From contig NZ_RKHK01000001.1 of the NCBI RefSeq assembly GCF_003752405.1, positions 1,798,001 through 1,862,000 on the forward strand: DNA of 64,000 bases, read 5' to 3'. The position numbers and the translations under genes are program-made. Origin of the DNA: Bogoriella caseilytica (GTDB lineage Bacteria > Actinomycetota > Actinomycetes > Actinomycetales > Actinomycetaceae). Within the stretch, counting starts at the first letter, position 1; the number at the start of each line of letters is the position of its first letter. Shown in pieces: positions 32,724-41,745 of this stretch. The notes under the pieces are model-generated. The model was not told where the DNA came from. It saw only the letters and a program-made list of their open reading frames with translations, and did not search any database.

Positions 32724-34497
<1,774 letters not shown>

Positions 34498-35205: not shown

Positions 35206-37467
35206 ATGCCACACCCATTGGATAAGGCGCACGTGCTGCTCACCGGCGCCACCGGATTCGTAGGACAAGCCGTGCTCGAACGGCTCCTGTCCGGGCACCC
35301 CGACGCCCACGTCACCCTGCTCGTCCGGCCCCGCGGCGACATCACTGCCGCCCAGCGAGTGGCCAAGCTCTTGCGCAAGCCGGTCTTCCGGCCGTGGCGT
35401 GAAACGGTGGGCAACGAGGGCGCCGAGGCTGCCCTGCGGGATCGCATTTCCGTGATCGAGGGCGATCTCGGTGCCGTGCCCGAACTCCCCGGTGATCTCG
35501 ACGTCGTCATCCACTCCGCCTCCACCGTCTCCTTCGACCTGCCGATCGATGAGGCCTTCGTGGCCAACGTCGCCGGCCCGGCGTCGCTCTATGAGGCGCT
35601 CCAGGCCGCCGGCGGCGATCCGCACGTGGTGCACGTGTCCACCGCCTACGTGGCCGGAGCCCGCAAGGGCGTGGCCGAGGAGCGTTCCCTCGACCACGAG
35701 ATCGACCATCTCCGTGAGCTCGACTTCGCCGTCGCGGCACGCGCTGCCGCGGAGAACGACTCCCGCACCCCCGCCATCCTCGGCGACCTGAACCAGCAGG
35801 CCGTGGCCGAGCACCGCCGCGCCGGTCCGCGCGCCGTCGCCGCTGCTACTGAGGCTCTGCGCCAGGAATGGGTCACCGAACGCCTCGTTGACGCCGGGCG
35901 AATCAGGGCCCAGTCCCTGGGCTGGCCGGACGTGTACACCTTCACCAAGGCCATGGGTGAGCGCGTGGCCGAGGGCATGTGGGCCGGCGCCGGCCACCGC
36001 CTCTCCGTCCTGCGGCCCACCATCATCGAGTCTGCGCTCCGCCACCCCTTCCCGGGCTGGATCGACGGATTCAAGGTGGCCGACCCGCTCATCGCGGCCT
36101 ACGGGCGCGGGATGCTCCCCGAGTTCCCCGCCCTGGCCGACACGGTGTTGGACATCATCCCGGTCGACTTCGTCGTCAACGCCACGCTGGAAGCCGCGGC
36201 CACCCCGCCACCGGTGGAGGAACCCGCGTACTACCAGGTCTCCTCCTCGGTCACGAACCCCCTGCGCATCGGTCAGCTCGTTTCCACCGTGCGGGAGTAC
36301 TTCTCCGAGAACCCCCTCACCGATCATGACGGCTCCCGCGTCTCAGTGCCGGCCTGGTCGTTCCCGCACCCGCGCGCCGTCGAGCGCGCCCTGCGCCGCC
36401 GCGAGTCGGCGGTCTCCGTGGCAGACAAAGCCCTGAGCAAGCTGCCGGCCACGGCGCGCACGCGCGGCTGGATCAAGGGCCTGGACCGCACCCGGAAGGA
36501 TCTCGTCCGCCTGCGGAAGTTCACCTCGCTCTACCAGCCCTACACCCAGACCGAGGTGACCTTCGACGACGCCCGGGTGCGCGAGCTGCACTTCGCTCTT
36601 TCCGAGGAAGAGCGCGCCGATCGCGGCTTCGACGTCACCGACATCGACTGGCGGCACTACTTGCAGTCGGTGCACATCCCCAACGTGCCGGGCCTGTTGC
36701 GGCAGAGCGGGGGCCCCAGCAAGGCCCCAGCCCCGGCGGCGCTCCCCGAACGCACCGACGTGCTGGCCGTATTCGACCTGCAGCGCACGCTGGCCTCGGC
36801 CACGCTGGTGGAGCAGTACCTGTGGGTGGAGCTGGCCGCCCATCCGCCGTCGCGCTGGCCGCGCTCCCTGGCCGGCCTGGTGGCCTCCGCGCCCCGCTTC
36901 CTGCAGGCCGAGCGCCGCGATCGCGCCGACTTCATCCGCACCTTCATGCGCCGCTACGCCGGCGTGGACCCCGAGGTGCTGCGCGAAGTCATCGCCCGCG
37001 AGGTCACTCCCTCCATGCGCCGCGACGTGTTCCTCGACGCCATGAGGCGCGTGCAGGCCCACCGCGCTGCCGGGCACCGCACGGTGCTCGTCTCCGGTGA
37101 GATCGACGTCTTCGTGGAACCCTTCGCCCCGCTCTTCGACGACGTCGTGGCCGGGAGCATGGAGGTCGGCGAGGACGGCTTGTGGACCGGCCACCTCGAG
37201 ACCTCCCCGCTGGTGGGGGAGGCCCGCGCCGCCTGGTTGCGCCGCTACGCCCGCGAGCACGACATGGACCTCGAGGGCTCCTTCGCCTACGGCGATGCCT
37301 ACGCGGATCGGCCCTGGCTCGACGTGGTCGGCAATCCTCACGCGGTCAACCCCGACGCCTCGCTCTACCGGTATGCTCACGCCCGGCGGTGGCCGGTCCT
37401 GACCTGGACGGAGACCGCCGAGAGCCGGGTGGTCCCGGTTCTCCGCAGCCTCCGGGGAGGATCGTGA
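35206..37467 (+). CDS. Fatty acyl-CoA reductase fused to a HAD-IB hydrolase domain
   Basis: The 753-residue protein joins two enzymes. Residues about 8-420 are a NAD-binding fatty acyl-CoA reductase (FAR) of the Male-sterility type: VLLTGATGFVGQAVLERLL at the N-terminus, HVSTAYVAG, and YTFTKAMGER with the catalytic Tyr-x3-Lys. It should reduce acyl-CoA to fatty alcohol. Residues about 520-740 are HAD-IB-like: motif I is FDLQRTLASATL, where the usual second Asp (DxD) is Gln; motif II is LVSGE and motif IV YGDAYADRPWL. The HAD part may thus be weak or inactive. It heads an operon with SDR, PlsC and AGPS genes and overlaps the SDR start (TGATG). Confidence 0.85.
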   Translation: MPHPLDKAHVLLTGATGFVGQAVLERLLSGHPDAHVTLLVRPRGDITAAQRVAKLLRKPVFRPWRETVGNEGAEAALRDRISVIEGDLGAVPELPGDLDVVIHSASTVSFDLPIDEAFVANVAGPASLYEALQAAGGDPHVVHVSTAYVAGARKGVAEERSLDHEIDHLRELDFAVAARAAAENDSRTPAILGDLNQQAVAEHRRAGPRAVAAATEALRQEWVTERLVDAGRIRAQSLGWPDVYTFTKAMGERVAEGMWAGAGHRLSVLRPTIIESALRHPFPGWIDGFKVADPLIAAYGRGMLPEFPALADTVLDIIPVDFVVNATLEAAATPPPVEEPAYYQVSSSVTNPLRIGQLVSTVREYFSENPLTDHDGSRVSVPAWSFPHPRAVERALRRRESAVSVADKALSKLPATARTRGWIKGLDRTRKDLVRLRKFTSLYQPYTQTEVTFDDARVRELHFALSEEERADRGFDVTDIDWRHYLQSVHIPNVPGLLRQSGGPSKAPAPAALPERTDVLAVFDLQRTLASATLVEQYLWVELAAHPPSRWPRSLAGLVASAPRFLQAERRDRADFIRTFMRRYAGVDPEVLREVIAREVTPSMRRDVFLDAMRRVQAHRAAGHRTVLVSGEIDVFVEPFAPLFDDVVAGSMEVGEDGLWTGHLETSPLVGEARAAWLRRYAREHDMDLEGSFAYGDAYADRPWLDVVGNPHAVNPDASLYRYAHARRWPVLTWTETAESRVVPVLRSLRGGS

Positions 37468-38354
37468 TGACGCGGGCCGCATGGACGATCGGGGTCGCTG
37501 GTGCCGCTGGAGCTACCGCCGCTGCGGTGGCGGCGGCACGGTGGGCGCGACCGACCGTGGAGGTTGCTCCCGCGCGGCCCGTCCTGCACGGCCAGGCCAT
37601 GGTGACCGGCGGCACCTCGGGCATCGGTCTGGCTTTCGCCCGGGCACTGGCCGAGCGCGGCTGTGACCTGGTGCTGGTGGCCCGCCACGGTGAACGTCTG
37701 AAGAAGACCGCCGGCCAGCTCTCCTGGCGATACGGCATCACCGTGGAGACCCTCGAGGCCGATCTCGCCACACGCGAGGGTGCCGCAGCTGCGGCTGAGC
37801 GCCTCGCCGATCCGGACCGGCCCATCGAGGTGCTGGTCAACAACGCCGGCAAGGGCGTGCACGTGCCGCTCGCTGCGGAGGACACCAGCGAGCACGAAGC
37901 CTCCATCGACCTCATGATCCGCAGCGTCCTCATCCTCGGCGCCGCGGCCGGAGGTGCCATGCGTGCACGCGGTCACGGAGCCATCATCAACGTGGCCTCA
38001 GTGGCCGGCTTGATCCCCATGGGTGCCTACTCCGCCATCAAGTCCTGGGTGGATACTTACAGCGAGTCCTTGGCCATGGAACTCGGGGGAGATGGCGTGC
38101 AGGTGCTCAGCGTGCGGCCCGGGTGGGTGCGCACCGAGTTCCATGAGCGGGCTGGGATCCGCACCACCTCCATCCCGGACTTCCTCTGGCTCGATGCCGA
38201 GCGCGTGGTCGAGGACGCGCTGGCCGATCTTGACCGCGGGAAGATCCACTCCACCTCCACCCTTCGCTTCAAGGTCCTCGCAGCGGCAGCGGCCCATGCG
38301 CCGCGGCCACTGGTGCGCTGGGCGACAGCCAAGATCAAAGGGGGGCGATCATGA
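37467..38354 (+). CDS. Short-chain dehydrogenase/reductase with N-terminal membrane segment
   Basis: The 295-residue SDR has an N-terminal Ala-rich membrane-like segment (residues 8-27), the cofactor motif TGGTSGIG (47-54), NNAG, and the catalytic Ser and YSAIK (Tyr188, Lys192). By its place between a fatty acyl-CoA reductase and an AGPS-like gene it is a candidate acyl/alkyl-DHAP reductase, which would make 1-alkyl-glycerol-3-phosphate. The sequence itself shows only a classical SDR. It overlaps both neighbours (1 and 4 bases). Confidence 0.82.
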   Translation: MTRAAWTIGVAGAAGATAAAVAAARWARPTVEVAPARPVLHGQAMVTGGTSGIGLAFARALAERGCDLVLVARHGERLKKTAGQLSWRYGITVETLEADLATREGAAAAAERLADPDRPIEVLVNNAGKGVHVPLAAEDTSEHEASIDLMIRSVLILGAAAGGAMRARGHGAIINVASVAGLIPMGAYSAIKSWVDTYSESLAMELGGDGVQVLSVRPGWVRTEFHERAGIRTTSIPDFLWLDAERVVEDALADLDRGKIHSTSTLRFKVLAAAAAHAPRPLVRWATAKIKGGRS

Positions 38355-39163
38355 CGGCAAAGAAGCCGCGCACACAGCGCTACCACTCGGCATGGCATCG
38401 GAGCCTGCGCTACGTCACTCAGCGCCTCATCATGCGCGCGGTGGTGGGTTCAACCGTGCAGGTGAAGGCCGAAGGCCTGGACAACCTGGAGTCTCTGGAG
38501 CGGCCTTTCATCGTGGCGGCTAACCACTCCAGCCATCTGGACACCACGGTGCTGCTGACTGCCCTGCCGTGGCGAGTCACCTCCCACCTGGCGGTGGGCG
38601 CGGCTTCGGATTACTTCTACAACCATATGTACCGCTCCATGGCGGCTTCGGCGTTCTTCAACACCTATCCGGTGCATCGTCCTGGGTCAAAGGGCCGCTC
38701 GGCTAAGCGCAGCAAGGGCATGACGCGCAAATTGGTCGAGGAGCAGATTCCTGTGCTGCTCTTCCCCGAGGGCACCCGCAGCCGGGACGGCAAGATGGCG
38801 GCCTTCAAACCGGGTGTGGCGGCCATCTGCGCCGAGCAGCAGATCCCATGCGTGCCGGTGGCGCTCCTGGGCACCTTCGATGCCATGCCCCCCGGGCGGA
38901 GCTGGCCGATGCCCGGCCGCCCTCGGGTGCGGGTGCTGGTGGGCCGCCCGATGCGTCCGCGCCGCGGCGAGGCGGTGGGGGACTTCAACGAACGACTCTC
39001 CGCACGGGTGCGGACCATGATCGACATGCAGACGCCGTACGTGCTTGCCGATAAGCCTGCCGCGCGCGAGAGCGCCGCGGAGGACGGCGAGACACGCCAG
39101 GGCAAGAGGTCTCGACCCCGAGACGCACAAGGGCCCGGCCGGGCACAGGAGGAAGCCTCGTGA
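38351..39163 (+). CDS. 1-acyl-sn-glycerol-3-phosphate acyltransferase, PlsC family
   Basis: The 270-residue acyltransferase has the catalytic motif NHSSHLD (58-64, NHx4D), the phosphate-binding motif FPEGTRS (138-144), and a third block VPVALLGTFDAMPPG. These match LPLAT/PlsC enzymes that acylate the sn-2 position of lysophosphatidate. The C-terminal 40 residues are charged and unstructured. It sits within the ether-lipid-like operon, where it could acylate 1-alkyl-glycerol-3-phosphate. The start overlaps the SDR stop by 4 bases. Confidence 0.88.
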   Translation: MTAKKPRTQRYHSAWHRSLRYVTQRLIMRAVVGSTVQVKAEGLDNLESLERPFIVAANHSSHLDTTVLLTALPWRVTSHLAVGAASDYFYNHMYRSMAASAFFNTYPVHRPGSKGRSAKRSKGMTRKLVEEQIPVLLFPEGTRSRDGKMAAFKPGVAAICAEQQIPCVPVALLGTFDAMPPGRSWPMPGRPRVRVLVGRPMRPRRGEAVGDFNERLSARVRTMIDMQTPYVLADKPAARESAAEDGETRQGKRSRPRDAQGPGRAQEEAS

Positions 39164-40866
39164 CCACACAGTCACACAAGAACACCGTCCCGCACATGAA
39201 GTGGTGGGGCTGGGGCGTCGAGGGCGTCGCCTTCAACCACCGGGACAAGCCGAACTTCCGGCCCTTCGTGCTCGACCAGGTCGGCGTCGACGTCGACGTC
39301 CCCGGCACGCCCCCGCCTGCCTTCGAGGAGATCGATGTTCCCGCCCCCCGCATCGGCGAGGAACTGCTGGCCGAGCTGGCTGAGGCGGTCGGCGAGGAGA
39401 ACGTCTACACCGAGGACTTCGACCGTGTCGTCCACACCTACGGCAAGGGCTTGCCGGACCTGATCAAGGTCCGCGCCGGGCACCTGCCCCGTGCCGTCGA
39501 CGTCGTGGTCTACCCCGGCAACGAGAGCGACGTCCAGGCCGTGCTCGACGCCGTGGTGGCCGCCGACGCCGTGCTGATCCCCTTCGGTGGCGGCTCGAAC
39601 ATCTCCGGCTCGCTCACCCCGCCGGAGTCCGAGGAACGTCCCGTGGTCTCCCTGGATCTCGGGCGGATGAACCGGGTGCTCGAGATCGACGAGACGGCCG
39701 GCCTGGCGCGGATCCAGGCCGGCGTGCTGGGCCCGGACATGGAAGAGCAGCTCACGGCCCGAGGCTGGACCATGGGTCACCAGCCCGACTCCTTCCGCCA
39801 CTCCACTCTCGGCGGGTGGATCGCCACTCGCTCCTCGGGGATGCAGTCCGACAAGTACGGCGACATCGCCGACATCACCCGTGGTCTGCGCGCCGTCCAG
39901 CCCGGCCGGATGCTGGTGCTGCGCCCCCTGCCCTCGACCTCGACCGGTCCGAGCGTGCGGGAGATGATCCTGGGATCCGAAGGCCGTCTCGGTGTGATCA
40001 CCGAGGCCTGGGTGCAGGTGCACCGGCTGCCGGAGAACCGCGAGATCATCGCCTACCTCTACCCGAGCTGGGCTGCGGCGCTGGCCGCGATGCAGGAGAT
40101 CTCTACCTCCGACGCCTCGCCGTCGGTCACGCGTGTGTCCGATGACCGCGAGACCGCCTTCTCCTTCTCCACGCAGAAGGCGAAGAAGGGCCTGAAGTCC
40201 ACGGTGCAGAAGGGCCTGTTCGACCTGCTGGAGCGCCGCGGGTGGGACATGGATGCGGTGTGCCTGTCCTACGTGGGGTACGAGGGCGGCTCCGCCCGGG
40301 TCAAGGCGGAGAAGGCGATCGTGGGCAAGATCGTGCGCCGTCACGGCGGCATCAAGCTCGGCTCCGGGCCGGGTGAGCTCTACGACCAGAAGAAGTTCGA
40401 CACTCCCTACATCCGTGACTACCTGCTCGACATCGGTGCGGTGGCTGACGTCTCGGAGACGGCGACGCCGTGGTCGAACCTGCTCGACATCTACAACGGC
40501 ACGGTGCGCGCCGCCAAGGACGCCTATGCAGCTCTGGGCGTTCGCGGCTACATCATGTGCCACCTCTCGCACAGCTATCACTCCGGTGCGTGTCTCTATT
40601 TCACCTTCGCCTTCCCCCCGGCCACCGAGAAGTGGGAGGAGCAGATCGAGCAGTACTGGAAGGTCAAGAGCGCCATCCAGCAGTCCTTCGTCGATCTGAA
40701 GGGCACGATCTCTCACCACCACGGTGTGGGTACGGAGCACGCGCACTGGATCGAAGAGGACATCTCCGAGGCCGGTGTGGAGACCATGGTCGCGCTGCTA
40801 CGCGGTGTGGACCCCAGCCGCAACCTCAACCCCGGCAAGGTCATCCCCACCCACCGCGAGTGGTGA
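39160..40866 (+). CDS. FAD-linked oxidase family protein resembling alkyl-DHAP synthase (AGPS)
   Basis: The 568-residue flavoprotein is of the VAO/FAD_binding_4 type. Its N-terminus KWWGWG, the FAD motif PFGGGSNISG (141-150), GWIATRSSGMQSDKYGDI, the block STGPSVREMILGSEGRLGVITEA, DYLLDIGAVADVSETATPW, SHSYHSGACLYFTF and the active-site SHHHGVG (His519-521) all follow eukaryotic and myxobacterial alkyl-dihydroxyacetone-phosphate synthase rather than glycolate or lactate oxidases. AGPS swaps the acyl chain of acyl-DHAP for a fatty alcohol, forming the ether bond. The partner genes upstream (FAR, SDR, PlsC) fit. The GTG start overlaps the PlsC stop by 4 bases. Confidence 0.78.
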   Translation: MTTQSHKNTVPHMKWWGWGVEGVAFNHRDKPNFRPFVLDQVGVDVDVPGTPPPAFEEIDVPAPRIGEELLAELAEAVGEENVYTEDFDRVVHTYGKGLPDLIKVRAGHLPRAVDVVVYPGNESDVQAVLDAVVAADAVLIPFGGGSNISGSLTPPESEERPVVSLDLGRMNRVLEIDETAGLARIQAGVLGPDMEEQLTARGWTMGHQPDSFRHSTLGGWIATRSSGMQSDKYGDIADITRGLRAVQPGRMLVLRPLPSTSTGPSVREMILGSEGRLGVITEAWVQVHRLPENREIIAYLYPSWAAALAAMQEISTSDASPSVTRVSDDRETAFSFSTQKAKKGLKSTVQKGLFDLLERRGWDMDAVCLSYVGYEGGSARVKAEKAIVGKIVRRHGGIKLGSGPGELYDQKKFDTPYIRDYLLDIGAVADVSETATPWSNLLDIYNGTVRAAKDAYAALGVRGYIMCHLSHSYHSGACLYFTFAFPPATEKWEEQIEQYWKVKSAIQQSFVDLKGTISHHHGVGTEHAHWIEEDISEAGVETMVALLRGVDPSRNLNPGKVIPTHREW

Positions 40867-40872
40867 GCGGGC

Positions 40873-41745
40873 CTGGACGTCCACCAGGCCCAGGCCTTCC
40901 TGACCCTGGCCCAGGAGCTGCACTTCGGCCGCGCTGCGCAGCGCCTGCACATGGCCCAGCCGCCACTGAGCCGGCTCATCCGCAAGATCGAAGCCGAGTT
41001 GGGCGCCGCCCTTTTCGACCGCAGCACCCGCGGCGTCGCCCTGACGCCGCAGGGCGAGGCGCTGGTCGAGCCGGCGCGGGAGCTCGTCATGCAGTCCCAG
41101 CGCATCAAGGAGATCGTGCAACGCACCCAGGGCGGCATGATCGGGCGCGTACGCCTGGGCTACGCCGGCCCGTCGGTGGGCCATCTCGTGGGGCCGCTGG
41201 CGCGGCGGGTGCGCCAGGAGCGCCCCGGCATCGCGCTGGAGCTGTTCAGCTCCCAGTTCTCCCACCGTGGTCTGGAGAAGGTCACCGACGGCTCACTGGA
41301 CCTGGTGATCGGTCGATGGGACTTCCTTCCCGCTGAGGTCGACTCCCGTGTGCTGGCCCGTGAGGAGTTGCTGCTCGCCGTGCCGGCGGGCCACCGCCTG
41401 GCCACGTTCGAGATCGTGCCGGTGACGGAGCTCGCTGAGGAGCCCTGGATCGTACTGCCCGGGCGCAGCGCCGCCACCTTGCCGAACCGGCTGAACCTGC
41501 TCGGCGTCGCCGGGGGGTTCCTCCCGCGGGTGGTGCAGGTAGCTCCGGACTCCGCCACGCTCATGCTGCTCGTCGGTGCCGAGATGGGCATCGCGCTGAC
41601 CTTCTCCGGGGTGCGCGACCGTGTGCCGGCCGAGAACGTGGTCTTCCGCCGGCTGGGTCCGGAGCCCGGGGAGGTGAAGGTGCGGCTCGCCTGGCGCCAG
41701 GGGGACGAGAACCCCGCCCTGGCCGCGGTGGCTGAGCTGGCCTAG
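40873..41745 (+). CDS. LysR-family transcriptional regulator with an apparent CTG start
   Basis: The protein has a complete LysR N-terminal winged helix only if translation begins at CTG 40873: LDVHQAQAFLTLAQELHFGRAAQRLHMAQ... aligns with the usual M-D-x-x-Q-L start. No ATG, GTG or TTG is in frame between the AGPS stop (40864-40866) and ATG 40951, and that ATG would remove half of the DNA-binding domain. Alternatively GTG 40863, overlapping the stop, could be used with a 1-base frameshift near GGGCC. The rest is a substrate-binding domain (LRLGYAGPSVGHLVGPLARR). About 290 residues. It may control the upstream operon. Confidence 0.75.
   Translation: MDVHQAQAFLTLAQELHFGRAAQRLHMAQPPLSRLIRKIEAELGAALFDRSTRGVALTPQGEALVEPARELVMQSQRIKEIVQRTQGGMIGRVRLGYAGPSVGHLVGPLARRVRQERPGIALELFSSQFSHRGLEKVTDGSLDLVIGRWDFLPAEVDSRVLAREELLLAVPAGHRLATFEIVPVTELAEEPWIVLPGRSAATLPNRLNLLGVAGGFLPRVVQVAPDSATLMLLVGAEMGIALTFSGVRDRVPAENVVFRRLGPEPGEVKVRLAWRQGDENPALAAVAELA

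Follow-up and report, generated by a model that had tools for sequence, protein, structure and literature searches.

Positions 35206 to 40866 of a 64,000-nucleotide stretch of Bogoriella caseilytica DNA (contig NZ_RKHK01000001.1, forward-strand positions 1,798,001 to 1,862,000; this whole stretch is the window, and gene coordinates are counted from its first base) hold a compact operon of four genes, the last of which encodes a flavoprotein related to the ether-lipid enzyme AGPS. We consider it likely that the operon specifies an ether-phospholipid pathway based on dihydroxyacetone phosphate (DHAP). The genome is a single contig of 3,235,396 bases. The first-pass annotation of the window had described the four genes as overlapping, and their coordinates and translations bear this out, with overlaps of 1, 4 and 4 bases:

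35206-37467, forward strand: fusion of a fatty acyl reductase (FAR) and a haloacid dehalogenase-type (HAD) domain, named from Pfam and NCBIfam matches
37467-38354, forward strand: short-chain dehydrogenase/reductase (SDR), ATG start, 1-base overlap with the FAR-HAD gene
38351-39163, forward strand: PlsC/LPLAT-type acyltransferase, 4-base overlap with the SDR gene
39160-40866, forward strand: AGPS (alkylglycerone-phosphate synthase), GTG start, 4-base overlap with the PlsC gene

An AGGAGG sequence lies 7 bases 5' of the GTG start of the AGPS gene.

Identity of the four encoded proteins

AGPS converts acyl-DHAP and an alcohol to alkyl-DHAP in a ping-pong reaction that passes through a flavin adduct (PMC3509576; this article and those cited below are represented here by excerpts). 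The three AGPS-type motifs listed in the first-pass annotation, PFGGGSNISG, SHHHGVG and SHSYHSGACLYFTF, are all found in the translated flavoprotein, and the conserved MKWWGWG region of AGPS is encoded at 39196. Pfam assigned the domains FAD_binding_4 (4.9e-32) and FAD-oxidase_C (5.5e-39). A phmmer search of the PDB matched Dictyostelium AGPS (2uuu) at 372.6 bits (3.4e-110) and mammalian AGPS at 270-272 bits (4bby, 9.1e-80); the best non-AGPS matches were a putative oxidoreductase (3pm9, 77.6 bits), glycolate oxidase (70.2 bits) and D-lactate dehydrogenase (69.8 bits). Over aligned positions the window AGPS is 38% identical to the Dictyostelium enzyme (194/509) and 29% to that of guinea pig (153/520), and the two eukaryotic enzymes are 32% identical to each other.

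Nine positions that we take to represent the active site (guinea pig H300, T309, S367, R419, R515, Y578, H615, H616 and H617) are the same, nine of nine, in the window AGPS, both eukaryotic enzymes and 18 aligned relatives of the operon clade. Another FAD-oxidase of the same genome (L002) matches at three of them (T309, R515 and H617), lacking R419, Y578 and the first two histidines; the genome's third FAD-oxidase (L001) lay outside this comparison. At two further positions of the guinea pig enzyme, L469 and S527, the window AGPS has Gly and Val, as does that of Dictyostelium. A quick AGPS tree placed the operon clade on one side of a branch with a Shimodaira-Hasegawa-like approximate likelihood ratio (SH-aLRT) support of 99, with the eukaryotic rows on long unresolved branches; among named rows, Georgenia sp. 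EYE_87 and Oceanitalea stood nearest the window AGPS.

By its phmmer scores and the nine active-site positions the flavoprotein is a true AGPS relative. The first-pass annotation had raised the prospect of its clustering with lactate or glycolate oxidases, and at the sequence level it goes with AGPS instead (270-373 bits against at most 78). An operon of hydroxyacid or wax-ester metabolism built around a D-lactate, glycolate or other 2-hydroxyacid oxidase would share FAD_binding_4 and FAD-oxidase_C, which are common to AGPS and these oxidases, and the NCBIfam model glcD does match the flavoprotein at 134.8 bits. That score lies far below the model's cut-off of 567.9, however, and the protein keeps the histidine triad, the tyrosine and both arginines of AGPS; on these grounds and the phmmer scores we rejected the oxidase identity, which we regard as very improbable.

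The FAR-HAD protein matches NAD_binding_4 (1e-46), HAD (2e-31) and Sterile (9.4e-9), the last just passing at 35.8 bits against a cut-off of 35.4, 0.4 bits over. Its FAR part (NAD_binding_4 plus Sterile, residues 12-489 approximately) keeps both the GxxGxxG nucleotide-binding motif and YxxxK, and is predicted to be a fatty acyl-CoA or acyl-carrier-protein (ACP) reductase supplying a fatty alcohol. In the HAD-IB domain (about residues 521-718) the motif reads FDLQRTL, without the acid/base aspartate (Asp+2), and the corresponding second-Asp position is E, Q or H, never Asp, in 50 of 50 homologues. We therefore rejected a working HAD phosphatase: the domain lacks the acid/base residue and is probably no phosphatase. 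The HAD half has the appearance of a conserved pseudo-phosphatase.

The SDR matches adh_short (1.2e-36), and its best NCBIfam model is mycolate reductase, at 155.7 bits well under the cut-off of 380; by eye, its N-terminal stretch is rich in Ala and Val. We predict an alkyl-DHAP (perhaps also acyl-DHAP) reductase in the role of PexRAP/Ayr1. The PlsC-like protein matches Acyltransferase PF01553 (5.9e-20), with NHSSHLD (HX4D) and FPEGTRSR (EGT) motifs in its translation, and is a predicted DHAP acyltransferase and/or sn-2 acyltransferase. Two more PF01553 genes occur in the genome besides the operon copy.

Conservation of the gene set

In a sample of 151 genomes from the family, 26 match the AGPS at E<=1e-60: 18 at 66% identity or more and nearly full length (the B. 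caseilytica genome included), one as a 73% fragment (G112) and seven at 35-37%. Seventeen close family relatives were fetched: 16 of them (L062-L077) show the order FAR-SDR-PlsC-AGPS with all genes on the same strand, while in L078 the FAR gene is divergent. Such collinearity argues that the four-gene arrangement is not due to chance.

A scan of named genomes returned at least 472 AGPS relatives, the best 80 of which were kept for neighborhood counts, with partner genes located by tblastn. These 80 include Georgenia, Oceanitalea, Jiangella, Ruania, Occultella, Pseudactinotalea, Actinotalea, Subtercola, Agreia, Herbiconiux and Labedella, as well as Microlunatus, Enemella, Propioniferax, Phytoactinopolyspora, two Mycobacterium, Frankia, Thermoleophilaceae and others, and the four-gene set recurs in Georgenia, Jiangella, Ruania, Subtercola, Agreia and Herbiconiux. 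The most constant neighbor is PlsC, at no more than 400 bases from AGPS on either strand in 76 of the 80 loci; an SDR gene is found on the AGPS strand no more than 1.6 kb away in 68. FAR was counted where at least 7 kb of upstream sequence was available, which was also the case for 68 loci; it is near AGPS in 49 (24 on the same strand, 25 on the opposite one), and FAR, SDR and PlsC are all near AGPS in 48. PlsC also adjoins AGPS in L082 and L083, a pair of less closely related loci whose AGPS is 60% identical. The neighborhood survey proposed in the first-pass annotation thus found strong conservation, in collinearity among close relatives as in the linkage of PlsC and SDR.

The same annotation had found no evident DHAP acyltransferase. 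We amend this: the simplest candidate is the operon's own PlsC-like protein, which its tight linkage to AGPS makes the likely missing enzyme, since the other two PF01553 genes could perform ordinary sn-2 acylation.

Several other features of these loci are recorded here. Two Mycobacterium records (L122 and L124; M. simulans FI-09026 and a bog metagenome-assembled genome) have SDR-PlsC-AGPS, with AGPS at 65-69% and a HAD-related match just downstream. In the window, a LysR gene (approximately 40873-41745) lies 3' of AGPS; no LysR match above 60 bits was found in any of the 17 regions of close family relatives, with a 29% match in the distant L082, and we therefore rejected it as an operon member, as it is probably not in the set. 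A GroEL gene at 32839-34497 is directly upstream of the operon; L062 and L063 likewise have GroEL matches no more than about 5 kb from theirs.

A diiron protein pair associated with AGPS

Neighborhood comparison drew out a 264-residue protein encoded beside FAR in Ruania, Occultella, Agreia, Herbiconiux, Phytoactinopolyspora and others, and about 2.5 kb from FAR in Subtercola, accompanied by a related partner of about 290 residues. Diiron ligands of a four-helix fold, read from the sequence (E45, E77xxH80, E141 and E171xxH174) are invariant in 14 of 14 sequences of the 264-residue protein; the partner keeps E45 and H174, and has lost E77, H80 and E171 in eight of eight. Against the acyl-ACP desaturase family PF03405 the diiron protein scores 18.6 bits, under the gathering score of 22.7, and it gave no match at E up to 1 to PF10520 (Lipid_desat), which we take to be the CarF family. 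Its best PDB match by phmmer is a designed helix bundle (2.1e-5), with a weak match to DesA2 (0.061). A structural model (predicted local distance difference test score, pLDDT, 84.9; predicted template-modeling score, pTM, 0.86) is closest to castor stearoyl-ACP desaturase (Z 18.7, 3.3 A over 241 residues), in a comparison where mostly helical models typically reach a best Z of 14; R2-like oxidases and phenol hydroxylase follow at 15.8. Foldseek likewise ranked desaturases first, at E-values of only about 1e-3. The partner model (pLDDT 74.5) best matches R2-like oxidases (Z 16.1). We propose that the diiron protein may be a plasmanyl desaturase unlike CarF/PEDS1.

To assess co-occurrence, we used a sample of 199 Microbacteriaceae genomes, defining close AGPS as E<=1e-120 and a diiron match as E<=1e-30. 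Close AGPS was present in 55 genomes, a diiron match in 60 and both in 54 (Fisher p of about 1e-40, for related genomes that are not independent). In 54 of the 55 genomes with close AGPS, the diiron protein and/or its partner is encoded on the same contig, no more than 13 kb from AGPS; among them is G686, where the ligand-poor partner alone matched. G675 was the only genome with close AGPS and no diiron match. Six of the 60 diiron genomes had no close AGPS, including G681, whose contig is cut inside the operon yet holds PlsC, SDR and FAR. Five Microbacteriaceae genomes (loci L213-L217) carry the pair with neither a close AGPS match in the genome nor ether-lipid genes beside it, and the pair may have another use there.

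In the own-family sample the diiron protein occurs in nine genomes, all among the 19 with close AGPS, and by genus in 5 of 36, all within the six AGPS genera; it lies near AGPS on its contig only in G012. Among the 30 operon genomes first searched, 19 had the diiron protein and 11 did not, the three Georgenia searched and Pseudokineococcus being among the 11; other Georgenia seem to carry it (G125). For the wider diiron family, in a phylum sample of 396 genomes where the AGPS search scored at most three candidates per genome, an AGPS-like match (1e-60) was present in 5 of the 21 genomes with a diiron match, a share close to that in the sample overall (77 of 396), and a tie between the broader family and AGPS was rejected. 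The link is seen only for the closer diiron subfamily (at least 60% identity; 3 of the 21 phylum genomes), in the family samples.

B. caseilytica itself has the pair at G000:C1:1533838-1535456 (L208:6839-8457), about 0.3 Mb from AGPS and outside the window, which put it beyond view of the first-pass annotation. The two genes overlap by 4 bases, and the catalytic protein is 62% identical to that of Herbiconiux. Given this pair, plasmanyl and probably plasmenyl lipids are predicted in the organism. By reading of translations, the pair is flanked by sigK/rskA-like genes on one side and by a MarR-IDI-GGPPS-CrtB-like carotenoid cluster on the other, and sigK/rskA-like genes are also near the pair in L209 and L210. 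Plasmalogens of Myxococcus also act in light-induced carotenogenesis (PMC9131029).

Proposed pathway, rival explanations and published lipid profiles

On the observed gene content, homology, catalytic residues and conserved linkage of the set, we infer a substrate for each enzyme and an order of steps. FAR would supply the fatty alcohol by reducing an acyl thioester that is long-chain and probably branched, and DHAP would be acylated by the PlsC-like protein. AGPS would then replace the acyl chain with the alcohol by way of a flavin adduct, and the resulting alkyl-DHAP would be reduced by the SDR to 1-alkyl-glycerol-3-phosphate. Acylation at sn-2, by PlsC or one of the two other PF01553 enzymes, would give 1-alkyl-2-acyl-phosphatidate, which would then enter ordinary head-group synthesis. 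In genomes with the diiron pair, B. caseilytica included, the alkyl chain might further be desaturated at C1' to the vinyl ether of a plasmalogen. The first-pass annotation had taken the pathway as far as 1-alkyl-2-acyl-phosphatidate; homology, residues and linkage support this part, and our amendment is that in relatives with the diiron pair it probably continues to vinyl ethers.

Bacterial plasmalogens are usually tied to anaerobes, through the reductive PlsA/PlsR route, or to myxobacteria and Leptospira, through CarF, and are seldom expected in air-breathing bacteria. In Subtercola vilae DB165, dimethyl acetals (DMA), which are plasmalogen derivatives, total about 22% (i-16:0 DMA 17.0%, a-15:0 DMA 3.2% and a-17:0 DMA 1.9%; PMC5945732), and the genome of this very strain (L142) carries the operon. 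The same excerpt gives acetals of 1.5-13.3% each, some trace or absent, in S. frigoramans, S. boreus and S. lobariae, and no dimethyl acetals in Frondihabitans; for Agreia its table has the major acetals as not detected and its discussion gives only iso-15:0 DMA, at 4% or less (PMC5945732). The operon is also present in genomes of S. boreus, S. lobariae and Agreia pratensis, which may not be the strains measured for lipids. The aerobic Kineococcus rubinsiae has a-15:0 DMA, deemed surprising at first sight in a report that cites S. boreus and S. frigoramans as aerobes in which acetals of this kind occur (PMC7472656). The MIDI system had labeled the K. rubinsiae a-15:0 DMA peak C14:0 2-OH, and C14:0 2-OH peaks in other aerobic actinobacteria (Subtercola L136 and L142; published Frondihabitans and Kineococcus profiles) may be anteiso-15:0 dimethyl acetal (cf. 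PMC7472656).

Matches to CarF PF10520 were found in none of 24 genomes, and positive controls likewise gave no match. DUF2229 (PF09989), which we take to be a part and mark of the anaerobic PlsA, was not found in any of the 24, including four Subtercola (S. vilae DB165 too) and the B. caseilytica genome, with controls matching in 4 of 14; we therefore rejected the view that the Subtercola acetals stem from the anaerobic PlsA route. Alkyl ethers, for their part, do not yield methyl esters when fatty acids are analyzed by routine methods, and so their presence in Georgenia, Jiangella and Ruania may have gone unnoticed.

Among known systems, the closest in gene types is Myxococcus MXAN_1676-1674 plus elb, which likewise brings together AGPS, FAR, an acyltransferase and an NAD-dependent reductase in an aerobe (PMC9131029). 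There FAR is fused to a GNPAT-like acyltransferase, whereas the window operon has FAR fused to HAD, a separate small PlsC and a classical SDR, and no CarF match was found in a search whose controls were also silent. For the four steps of the eukaryotic peroxisomal pathway (FAR1, GNPAT, AGPS and PexRAP) the bacterial operon has one candidate gene each, with an AGPS active site identical at the nine positions and a PlsC-type protein apparently in place of GNPAT. CarF/TMEM189 (PEDS1), the plasmanylethanolamine desaturase, catalyzes the reaction that we propose for the diiron protein, which in contrast lacks a PF10520 match and in its model has a soluble acyl-ACP-desaturase/ferritin-like fold. The anaerobic PlsA/PlsR route leads to the same proposed end product, vinyl ethers, but is reductive and DHAP-independent (PMC9702350), and its DUF2229 was not found in the genomes examined. 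In the open-licence PMC literature, as represented by excerpts, neither an AGPS operon nor a diiron plasmanyl desaturase was found described for aerobic actinobacteria; Agps homologues are noted in Black Sea actinobacterial metagenome-assembled genomes (PMC11868695) and ElbD-like clusters in sponge symbionts (PMC9426513).

Several observations weigh against the ether-phospholipid reading. In fourteen aligned distant actinobacterial AGPS-like proteins no more than one of the nine residues differs, T309 being the variable one, and since such proteins occur without the partner genes, AGPS residues alone are no proof of the pathway: AGPS-like loci of 34-41% identity (three 35-37% family relatives and 18 distant phylum loci) showed no FAR, SDR or PlsC above 60 bits in 21 of 21 fetched stretches, some with short flanks. 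No FAR was found close to AGPS in 19 of the 68 loci with room for one, and there the alcohol may come from elsewhere; by title, we take about 14 of these to be Propionibacteriaceae and two Thermoleophilaceae. The HAD domain fused to FAR is degenerate, and disrupting MXAN_1676, the Myxococcus AGPS, lowered ether lipids only slightly (PMC9131029). Alternatively, FAR could feed wax esters or free alcohol and AGPS-PlsC make neutral alkyl-glycerol lipids (alkyl-diacylglycerols, like Myxococcus TG-1) rather than membrane phospholipids. Myxococcus does make an alkyl-diacylglycerol (PMC9131029), and FAR does carry a fused HAD domain, but the absence of that domain's acid/base Asp in all 50 homologues speaks against this account, and the Subtercola acetals are compatible with phospholipids, the lipid class not being stated in the excerpt of PMC5945732; we judge it unlikely.

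The ether-phospholipid pathway could also operate while the diiron pair serves as an aldehyde/alcohol or acyl-chain oxygenase (in hydrocarbon formation, hydroxylation or mid-chain desaturation), with the Subtercola acetals arising from another enzyme. This is quite possible: the fold is shared with aldehyde deformylating oxidase (6d9f, Z 15.4) and R2-like oxidases as well as with the higher-scoring acyl-ACP desaturases, the diiron match occurs without close AGPS in six Microbacteriaceae genomes, 11 of the 30 operon genomes lack the protein, and in 11 regions around distant diiron genes (38-48%) the only adjacent ether-lipid match was a weak one to SDR. Against it stands the proximity to AGPS in 54 of 55 Microbacteriaceae genomes. 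In addition, the excerpted Subtercola profiles show no unsaturated acyl chain above trace, so that the sole unsaturation reported there is the vinyl ether (PMC5945732). We tentatively favor the proposal, plausible if short of probable, that aerobic actinobacteria make plasmalogens by a third route, in which plasmanyl lipids made through AGPS would be desaturated at C1' by a soluble ferritin-like diiron heterodimer (a catalytic and a ligand-poor subunit), unrelated to CarF/PEDS1 and PlsA/PlsR.

The third route, if true, would explain the Subtercola dimethyl acetals, and perhaps those of Kineococcus. The diiron protein would be a candidate vinyl-ether-forming desaturase of a different fold and, if the step is real, a new solution to a known reaction. 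With a conserved AGPS operon and published acetal data for a strain that carries it, an old chemotaxonomic oddity becomes a testable gene set.

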